The notes under the pieces: model-generated | What the model was told of the DNA's origin: nothing | The model's input: only the letters and a program-made list of their open reading frames with translations | Databases searched by the model: none | From: Treponema sp. | GTDB taxonomy: Bacteria; Spirochaetota; Spirochaetia; Treponematales; Treponemataceae | Direction: 5' to 3' | NCBI RefSeq assembly: GCF_024696245.1 | Contig: NZ_JAILGZ010000028.1 | Location: 1-33,381, forward strand | Length of the DNA: 33,381 bases | Part shown: positions 6,858 through 8,047 of the stretch, in pieces | Layout: every line of letters starts with the position of its first letter | Position numbering within the stretch: position 1 is the stretch's first letter | Translations under genes and position numbers: made by a program

Positions 6858-7565
6858 TTAAATTCTTCCACAGATTGCACGAACAAGGGCTGCACTTAAA
6901 TTTGCGGCACTTTCTTCGTTAAAATCATAGGTTGATTCACCTGCATCATCGGCCATATCACTCATACACCTGATAATTACAAAAGGTGTTTTATATAAAT
7001 AAGCCGCATGAGCTATTGCTGCACCTTCCATTTCTACACAAGCCGGGTCACAGGCTGCCTTAATACGGGCCTTTATCTCTTTAGAAGAAACAAACTGATC
7101 TCCAGAAGCAATTCTGCCTGCCATAAGAGAGTGCCCCTCAGCCTCTTTTAATGAAGCAAAAGCCTCTTTTGCCGCAACAATCATAGCTGCATCTGCTGCA
7201 AAATCAGAACACTCCATCTGAGGGATTTCTGTAGCCTTGTATCCAAAACCTGTAGCATCCATATCGTGATAAAGGGCATCTGTAGACACAACAAAATCCA
7301 GCACCTTTAATCCATGAGCCATGGCACCGGCAATACCTGTATTTATAATATGGGTAACCTTAAATTCACAAATAAGAATCTGGGTACAAAGAGCCGCATT
7401 AACTTTACCTATACCTGACTGAACAATAACTACATCTTTTCCATCAAGCTTTCCTTCTACAAAGGTAAGACCCATGGATTTCTTTTCTGTTGAATTTTCA
7501 AGCAAAGACTTCAACGTTTTTACTTCAACGTTCATTGCACCGATAATTCCAATCTTATTTTGCAT
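6858..7565 (-). CDS. mtnN: 5'-methylthioadenosine/S-adenosylhomocysteine nucleosidase
   Basis: A 235-residue cytoplasmic enzyme that removes adenine from SAH and MTA, supplying S-ribosylhomocysteine to LuxS. Catalytic residues by family alignment are E14 (GAMNVEV), E180 (VEMEGAA) and D203 (SDMAD). SGIGKVNAA (50-58) and NTGIAGA are also present. ATG 7565 has AAGGAG 8 nt upstream. A 5-bp hairpin (TTGCG/CGCAA, loop GTATTT, about 7578-7593) runs into the ribosome site and may modulate translation. It is the first gene of the minus-strand run mtnN-luxS-DUF1538-PII-hslO-rsm22. No SAM or SAH riboswitch is recognisable in the short upstream region. Confidence 0.97.
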   Translation of the reverse strand: MQNKIGIIGAMNVEVKTLKSLLENSTEKKSMGLTFVEGKLDGKDVVIVQSGIGKVNAALCTQILICEFKVTHIINTGIAGAMAHGLKVLDFVVSTDALYHDMDATGFGYKATEIPQMECSDFAADAAMIVAAKEAFASLKEAEGHSLMAGRIASGDQFVSSKEIKARIKAACDPACVEMEGAAIAHAAYLYKTPFVIIRCMSDMADDAGESTYDFNEESAANLSAALVRAICGRI

Positions 7566-7633
7566 TTAATGTCACTCCTTGCGAAATACCGCAATATATG
7601 CAAAAAATTTCCAAAATTTTCTTTGAAAATCTA

Positions 7634-7662
7634 TTGACTACAATCAATTTCTTATATATTAT
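7634..7662 (+). promoter_or_regulatory. Strong sigma-70-type promoter facing right, no downstream gene on this strand
   Basis: TTGACT (7634-7639), a 17-nt spacer and TATTAT (7657-7662). The -35 box is embedded in TTGAC-TACA-ATCAA (7634-7647), one base from the CRP/FNR-family consensus TTGAT-N4-ATCAA, so the promoter may respond to such a regulator. Predicted start is near 7669. The next plus-strand gene begins at 8380, beyond a terminator. Confidence 0.7.
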
Positions 7663-7668
7663 CATCAT

Positions 7669-7741
7669 CAAGCAGTAAGAAAATCTTATACAAGAGCGGG
7701 CCGCTATTCTTCCTCCTTAAAGTGGCCCGCTTCTTTTTTTT
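7669..7741 (+). ncRNA. Candidate small regulatory RNA with anti-Shine-Dalgarno loop
   Basis: A predicted transcript of about 73 nt between mtnN and yhbY, both on the other strand. It has a promoter (7634-7662), a small 5' hairpin (TAAGA/TCTTA around 7676-7688) and a 3' intrinsic terminator. The terminator stem is GCGGGCCGCT (7696-7705) paired with AGTGGCCCGC (7721-7730) with one G-U pair, followed by TTCTTTTTTTT. The 15-nt loop (7706-7720) reads AUUCUUCCUCCUUAA, which contains CCUCCUUA, the anti-SD sequence of the 16S rRNA 3' end. There is no ATG inside the transcript. It ends about 10 nt from the yhbY stop, antisense to that gene's 3' flank. Function is inferred: base-pairing to ribosome binding sites. 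Confidence 0.6.
7696..7741 (+). terminator. Intrinsic terminator of the candidate small RNA
   Basis: A GC-rich stem of 10 bp (up to 12 with flanking A-U and G-U pairs) ends in a U-rich run on the plus strand. On the minus strand the stem is followed by TCTTGTATAAG, a poor U tract, so it does not serve yhbY well. No plus-strand gene lies upstream in the window. Confidence 0.8.
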
Positions 7742-7750
7742 AAATCCCTT

Positions 7751-8047
7751 TTACTTTAACTTAATAACTCTTTTTTCCGGATCCGGATTCTGTTTGTAAA
7801 GAATTGCTACATTACCAATTACACGTACAAGGGCAGCTTCACAGCTATCTGCCAGTTTCTGAGATAATTCAAGCTTTTCCTCTTTAAATTCATTGAACTT
7901 AACCTTTATAAGTTCATGATGTTCAAGACACTCAAGTGTTTTCTTTTCCAGTCCTTCGGTAACTCCACCCGCACCTACTATAACCAGGGGTTCAAGAGGG
8001 TTAGATAATGCTGTAAGGACCTTTCTCTGTTTGCTGTTTAATTCCAT
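7751..8047 (-). CDS. yhbY: YhbY/CRS1 (CRM-domain) RNA-binding protein
   Basis: A 98-residue single CRM-domain protein involved in large-subunit ribosome assembly in other bacteria. Seen: the N-terminal NSKQRKVLTALSNPLEPLVI segment, the GxxG-like loop VGAGGVTEGL (about 24-33), LIKVKFNEF and the C-terminal VRVIGNVAILYKQNP, all in the usual order and length. ATG 8047 has no SD. A possible promoter, ATGACA-17-TAATAT, ends 9 nt before it, so the mRNA may be almost leaderless. It is monocistronic; the candidate small RNA runs towards its 3' end. Confidence 0.95.
   Translation of the reverse strand: MELNSKQRKVLTALSNPLEPLVIVGAGGVTEGLEKKTLECLEHHELIKVKFNEFKEEKLELSQKLADSCEAALVRVIGNVAILYKQNPDPEKRVIKLK

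Follow-up and report, generated by a model that had tools for sequence, protein, structure and literature searches.

A conserved promoter-terminator unit of the Treponemataceae predicted to encode a small RNA with an anti-Shine-Dalgarno loop

In a stretch of 33,381 nucleotides of Treponema sp. DNA (the window), a promoter is followed on the plus strand by a GC-rich stem-loop and a U tract, between the genes mtnN and yhbY. The loop of this terminator contains CCUCCUU, a sequence also found at the 3' end of 16S rRNA. This raises the question whether the locus is a small RNA (sRNA) gene in its own right and, if it is, what such a loop could do. On comparative grounds, the existence of an sRNA gene is near certain. 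We also consider it probable that its product is a stand-alone, trans-acting sRNA of the Treponemataceae, whose terminator loop pairs with strong Shine-Dalgarno sites and lowers translation.

The unit between mtnN and yhbY

The initial annotation placed a TTGACT-17-TATTAT promoter at 7634-7662 on the plus strand and a GC-rich stem with a U tract ending at 7741, with neither an ATG between them nor a plus-strand gene upstream. Direct reading and a promoter scan agree with the promoter. The terminator is made up of a 12-pair stem, a loop of 15 nt and eight U residues ending at 7741. Re-reading of the sequence and of the ORF list confirms that the RNA contains no ATG and that no plus-strand gene lies directly upstream. 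The features of the unit and its surroundings are collected in Table 1, where the start of the sRNA is predicted from the position of the -10 hexamer.

Table 1. Features of the predicted sRNA unit and its neighbours in the window
Feature	Positions	Strand	Basis
mtnN (MTA/SAH nucleosidase family), divergent neighbour	6858-7565	-	PF01048 match
Array TTGCGAAATACCGCAATATATGCAA upstream of the promoter, with three TGCR-like sites spaced by about 10 bp	7579-7603	+	Genome pattern scan
T run (7618-7620) and A run (7626-7629) resembling an UP element	7618-7629	+	63 non-redundant promoters
-35 hexamer TTGACT	7634-7639	+	Direct reading, promoter scan, 63 non-redundant promoters
-10 hexamer TATTAT, spacer 17 nt	7657-7662	+	Direct reading, promoter scan, relatives' promoters
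Predicted sRNA, start about 7669-7671, end within U tract	7669-7741	+	Covariance models R1/R2 match 7669-7738
Conserved single-stranded 5' element AGCAGTAA (family form AGCAGCAA)	7671-7678	+	Alignment, promoter comparison
Terminator stem, 5' arm GAGCGGGCCGCT	7694-7705	+	Fold and covariation
Terminator loop, 15 nt, AUUCUUCCUCCUUAA	7706-7720	+	Fold; core UCCUCCUU at 7711-7718
Terminator stem, 3' arm AGTGGCCCGCTT	7721-7732	+	Fold and covariation
U tract, 8 T	7734-7741	+	Direct reading
yhbY, neighbour	7751-8047	-	Pfam match

The predicted fold of the 76-nt RNA has an energy of -25.2 kcal/mol (z -4.4), and none of 200 shuffled sequences reached an equally low value. A terminator scan, which accepts only loops of 3-8 nt, did not report this one of 15 nt. 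An Rfam search gave nothing at cut-off for the unit, CcsR1 and LhrC being weak matches.

Conservation in the Treponemataceae

A nucleotide search of the genus found matches in 23 of 196 genomes. At these loci, the promoter is followed by a AGCAGCAA-like 5' element, a linker that varies and the terminator, in which the stem differs while the loop keeps CCTCCTT. Two covariance models of the RNA alone, with the promoter left out, extended this set. The first, R1, gave hits at E <= 0.1 in 110 of 200 genomes of the same genus; only the top of this list is trusted. The second, R2, was built from 43 members; at E <= 0.01 it matches 161 of 274 Treponemataceae genomes, spread over 14 of 20 genera. The background maximum is 36.1 bits (in 1.6 Mb of one treponeme genome, unit left out), and the lower part of the R2 list is therefore taken with caution. 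By hand count, scores of at least 50 bits remain in about 78 of the 274 genomes, and scores of at least 45 bits in about 96 genomes from ten genera. Among 345 genomes of the phylum, every match with E < 1e-3 falls in the Treponemataceae, and the few matches outside this family score 34-38 bits. From these comparisons, the predicted sRNA unit is present in at least ten genera of the Treponemataceae. Finally, a pattern combining promoter, element and CCTCCTT returned 34 stretches from a collection of species genomes. Of these, 32 are treponemal or spirochaetal and all carry the stem-loop; the other two (Chamaesiphon and a Chitinophagales MAG) are without a real terminator. By this pattern, the cultured oral species Treponema lecithinolyticum ATCC 700332 (L232) carries the unit.

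Some variation is seen within the family. Certain genomes have two copies of the unit (G011, with L048 and L084; G271; G267; G244). Longer members carry an extra hairpin, CUUCCGUUGGAAG, between the 5' element and the terminator (L188, L126, L129, L132, L134, L142). In a subtype from genus g19, known from closed 2.8-Mb genomes (L192, L193, L194, L210), ACACACAGAAAAGATACACATACTACTTC replaces AGCAGCAA, and the promoter and loop of the main type are kept.

Because the promoter is absent from the covariance models, its conservation is separate evidence for the unit. Of the 79 promoters scored in relatives, 74 have a spacer of 17 nt, and the set shows a -35 hexamer that is mostly TTGAC(A/T), a TATAWT-like -10 hexamer and a 5' element beginning about 6-8 nt past the latter. 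A pattern of promoter plus AGCAGCAA, from which the loop was left out, occurs at 16 places in 200 genomes, versus 2 for the reversed pattern, and 13 of the 16 coincide with covariance-model matches. Relative to the start of the -35 hexamer, 63 non-redundant promoters are T-rich at -16 to -14 and read AAAA at -8 to -5 (79-94% A); these phased runs of A and T resemble an UP element. The same 63 promoters do not bear out the CRP/FNR-type site TTGAC-TACA-ATCAA that had been suggested over the -35: no inverted repeat is conserved there, only TTGACW followed by T-rich sequence, and regulation of this kind was rejected.

The terminator stem varies in sequence in a manner that preserves its pairs. Two-sided changes are found at all 11 modelled pairs, in 103 cells in total, and 96.2% of stem cells are paired in the structure-fitted alignment. 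The covariation score is 0.666 versus 0.301 in shuffles, a value favoured by the fitting of the alignment to the structure; a MAFFT alignment of 10 sequences, not fitted in this way, shows an agreeing trend. G-U cells, which pair on the plus strand only, number 28, versus 2 A-C cells, which pair on the minus strand only; the RNA strand is therefore the plus strand. In the loop, CCUCCU is invariant in 43 of 43 members and the next U is present in 41, the remaining two being gapped. Judged from the alignment, the stem needs only to pair and the loop must read (U)CCUCCUU. A coding RNA was rejected, with only two short ATG ORFs across the 43 members.

The proposal of a candidate sRNA with its own promoter is thus borne out by the family-wide conservation of promoter, element and terminator as a unit. 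Relatives had been named as the place to check it, and there promoter and loop are retained while the stem sequence varies; the opposite outcome would have spoken against it.

Proposed pairing with Shine-Dalgarno sites and competing explanations

We propose that a strong sigma70-type promoter drives synthesis of an RNA of about 70 nt, the 3' half of which would be an intrinsic terminator exposing the (U)CCUCCUU loop. This loop would pair with mRNAs in which an A follows a strong Shine-Dalgarno sequence (AAGGAGGA) and, in competing with the 3' end of 16S rRNA, would reduce translation for a restricted group of mRNAs. We infer this mechanism by analogy to RepG and LhrC; such a mode of action is likely, the likeliest being that the loop serves as the seed that pairs with Shine-Dalgarno sites. 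The loop core UCCUCCUU is complementary to AAGGAGGA. In relatives, the 16S rRNA ends in GGATCACCTCCTTTCT and shares CCUCCUU with the loop. The identity to the 16S 3' end claimed in the initial annotation hence holds for these 7 nt but not for the next position, the eighth, where the loop has A and 16S rRNA has U. Beyond CCUCCUU, the loop can pair through one further U, which lies toward the start codon in the duplex.

How many mRNAs could be concerned? In a 1.6-Mb portion of the G044 genome (59% of it, about 1,490 ORFs), AAGGAGGA precedes a possible start in only 3 ORFs, and AAGGAGG does so in 14 further ones. The genome to which the window belongs has 15 AAGGAGGAA-N2-9-ATG sites, versus 6 for the reversed pattern. 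With AAGGAGGA sites so rare, the loop would select a small set of mRNAs rather than inhibit translation generally. Candidates in this genome include FlaG, FlgK, Frr, a cytidylate-kinase-like protein and two chemotaxis-receptor-like proteins. Five of its candidates have a homologue in the available 59% of G044, and there only FlaG (AGGAGGAA) and Frr (AGGGGGAA, with one G-U) retain a long site. Overall, the candidate lists of the two carrier species hardly overlap; either the mRNA-pairing step is thereby weakened or targets turn over. In addition, many start regions reach much the same pairing energy with a seed of 7-8 nt, and fecE and the GH18 gene, singled out earlier as the best-fitting targets in the window, are two among many genes with similar complementarity. 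In the 1.6 Mb of G044, the genes that pair best form a mixed list (FliQ, CsrA, SpoVG, KhpB, HydF, GlgC and others), and for this reason a motility regulon built on FlaG, FlgK and the two chemotaxis-receptor-like candidates was dropped. CsrA (L378:18825-19043), KhpB/Jag (L318:7261-7974) and SpoVG (L367:9095-9382) stand among the 20 best-pairing start regions of G044, which may be a coincidence.

The AGC-AGC-AAG form of the 5' element is ARN-like and hinted at dependence on Hfq. However, no match to PF17209 over cut-off was detected in the genome itself, in 6 genomes of the genus or in 4 of the order, in a search that placed 5 of 14 control genomes over cut-off; Hfq dependence was accordingly rejected. 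A Borrelia gene annotated as hfq has been called a misannotation (PMC10319736). Because no Hfq was detected, pairing would be chaperone-independent or aided by another protein.

The identity of CCUCCUU to 16S rRNA and the lack of conservation of targets between species could also be read otherwise, with a real sRNA whose main partner is a small-subunit protein, through mimicry of the 16S end, or another RNA, for which it would act as a sponge. We regard this as rather unlikely, because the flanking base that is kept is U where 16S rRNA has A (UCCUCCUU vs. GGAUCACCUCCUU), the loop reproduces nothing else of the 16S end, and known sRNAs with comparable loops pair with mRNA.

The genomic context bears on a further possibility. 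Sixty-six distinct units were compared. In 47, alignment shows mtnN to be divergent, 11 more were retrieved from regions upstream of mtnN, and 2 are chance matches; mtnN is divergent from 58 of the 64 genuine units. Many genomes devoid of the unit have another gene near the mtnN start, leaving no space for it. In the initial setting between mtnN and yhbY, mtnN is therefore the conserved neighbour, and yhbY adjoins only 6 of the 66 units. Upstream of the promoter, the exact TTGCGAAATACCGCAATATATGCAA array occurs once in its own genome. The corresponding TGCR pattern is found at 72 places in 63 of 200 genomes, versus 4 for the reversed pattern, and only some of the 72 coincide with the sRNA; in other genomes, the array is also seen away from it. 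The array is a probable control region common to the sRNA and the divergent mtnN. The RNA might act chiefly on mtnN, whose ribosome-binding site contains AAGGAG, or be a by-product of the common divergent control region. Both are improbable: the mtnN start region offers only weak pairing (-9.1 kcal/mol), loop and stem would not be retained in a by-product, and the unit persists in other contexts, in G031, G091 and G187. These three genomes are incomplete and mtnN was not found in them; the array is retained at their units, where mtnN is not adjacent.

The locus could also be read as an attenuator of transcription, as a leader, or as an ordinary yhbY terminator beside a chance promoter. The stem does lie directly past the yhbY stop codon, and promoter-like strings are common (7 in 1 kb vs. 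4.2 in shuffles). However, no downstream gene is conserved, yhbY is seldom adjacent, and the plus strand is the one that carries the promoter, the U tract and the G-U pairs. Conservation across genera contradicts these ideas, which are in effect ruled out.

Repression by a trans-acting sRNA thus remains the preferred reading. A more far-reaching version of it, which we hold to be unlikely, is that of an abundant, family-wide mimic of the 16S end, made from a promoter with UP-like tracts, which, without Hfq, competes with the ribosome for the few strong AAGGAGGA sites and connects mtnN-linked control of the methyl cycle or of growth to species-specific mRNAs. If it were true, the methyl-cycle or growth state (SAH/MTA recycling, mtnN) would set the translation of these mRNAs.

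Relationship to known sRNAs

No report of the treponeme sRNA was found in the open-access literature, and the family is apparently both real and not described before. According to a 2022 survey, six sRNAs were annotated for the phylum of spirochaetes, and in its list of species discussed Treponema pallidum is among the exceptions for want of annotated sRNAs (PMC9029176). With so few spirochaete sRNAs annotated so far, treponemes would gain an sRNA family with a defined promoter and covariation support. The family occurs in a cultured oral species and belongs to a lineage in which Hfq was not detected, and it opens post-transcriptional control without Hfq in spirochaetes to direct testing. A second putative RNA lies between miaB-like and resolvase-like genes (L085, L088, L098, L211; related forms in L079, L091, L081, L089). 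It has a TTTGTAAC-type upstream element, a terminator loop UUUUCCUCCUU and, in some members, CCUCCUU in the leader; it is possibly another anti-Shine-Dalgarno sRNA, of a different promoter class.

Trans-acting anti-Shine-Dalgarno sRNAs are a kind and not a homology family. The treponeme RNA shows two features of this kind, its own promoter and intrinsic terminator conserved as a unit and an unpaired, conserved C-rich seed. CJnc230 (FlmE) of Campylobacter jejuni, which regulates in flagellar gene expression, is likewise an sRNA with a putative anti-Shine-Dalgarno motif. However, it is processed from the flgE transcript and its CCUU motif is single-stranded between hairpins (PMC11187230). The CcsR or cuckoo RNAs of alphaproteobacteria (RF02791) combine fixed anti-Shine-Dalgarno loops with variable stems (PMC3927594). 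They differ by their motif, CCUCCUCCC, by their several hairpins or copies, and by their origin, since they are RNase-processed from the transcript of a DUF1127 gene with RpoH promoters (PMC10253847). The window scores 19.8 bits with CcsR1 against a gathering cut-off of 65.3, and membership was rejected.

Two systems are closer. LhrC of Listeria monocytogenes (RF00616) contacts lapB at its ribosome-binding region through C-rich motifs in the terminator loop and in a second loop (PMC4132741). In contrast to the treponeme RNA, LhrC has three UCCC sites, one of them in the terminator loop, another hairpin and a multicopy locus (PMC4132741); membership of RF00616 was rejected at 23.7 bits against a gathering cut-off of 110. 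RepG of Helicobacter pylori is an abundant intergenic sRNA that uses the C/U-rich loop of its terminator as pairing site (PMC8295292), and its terminator hairpin is by itself enough for repression (PMC8295292). RepG targets a G-repeat in the tlpB leader and has another sequence in another phylum (PMC8295292), whereas the loop of the treponeme RNA is the complement of the Shine-Dalgarno sequence and is kept in at least ten genera. By analogy, the treponeme RNA probably works most like RepG, and also like LhrC.
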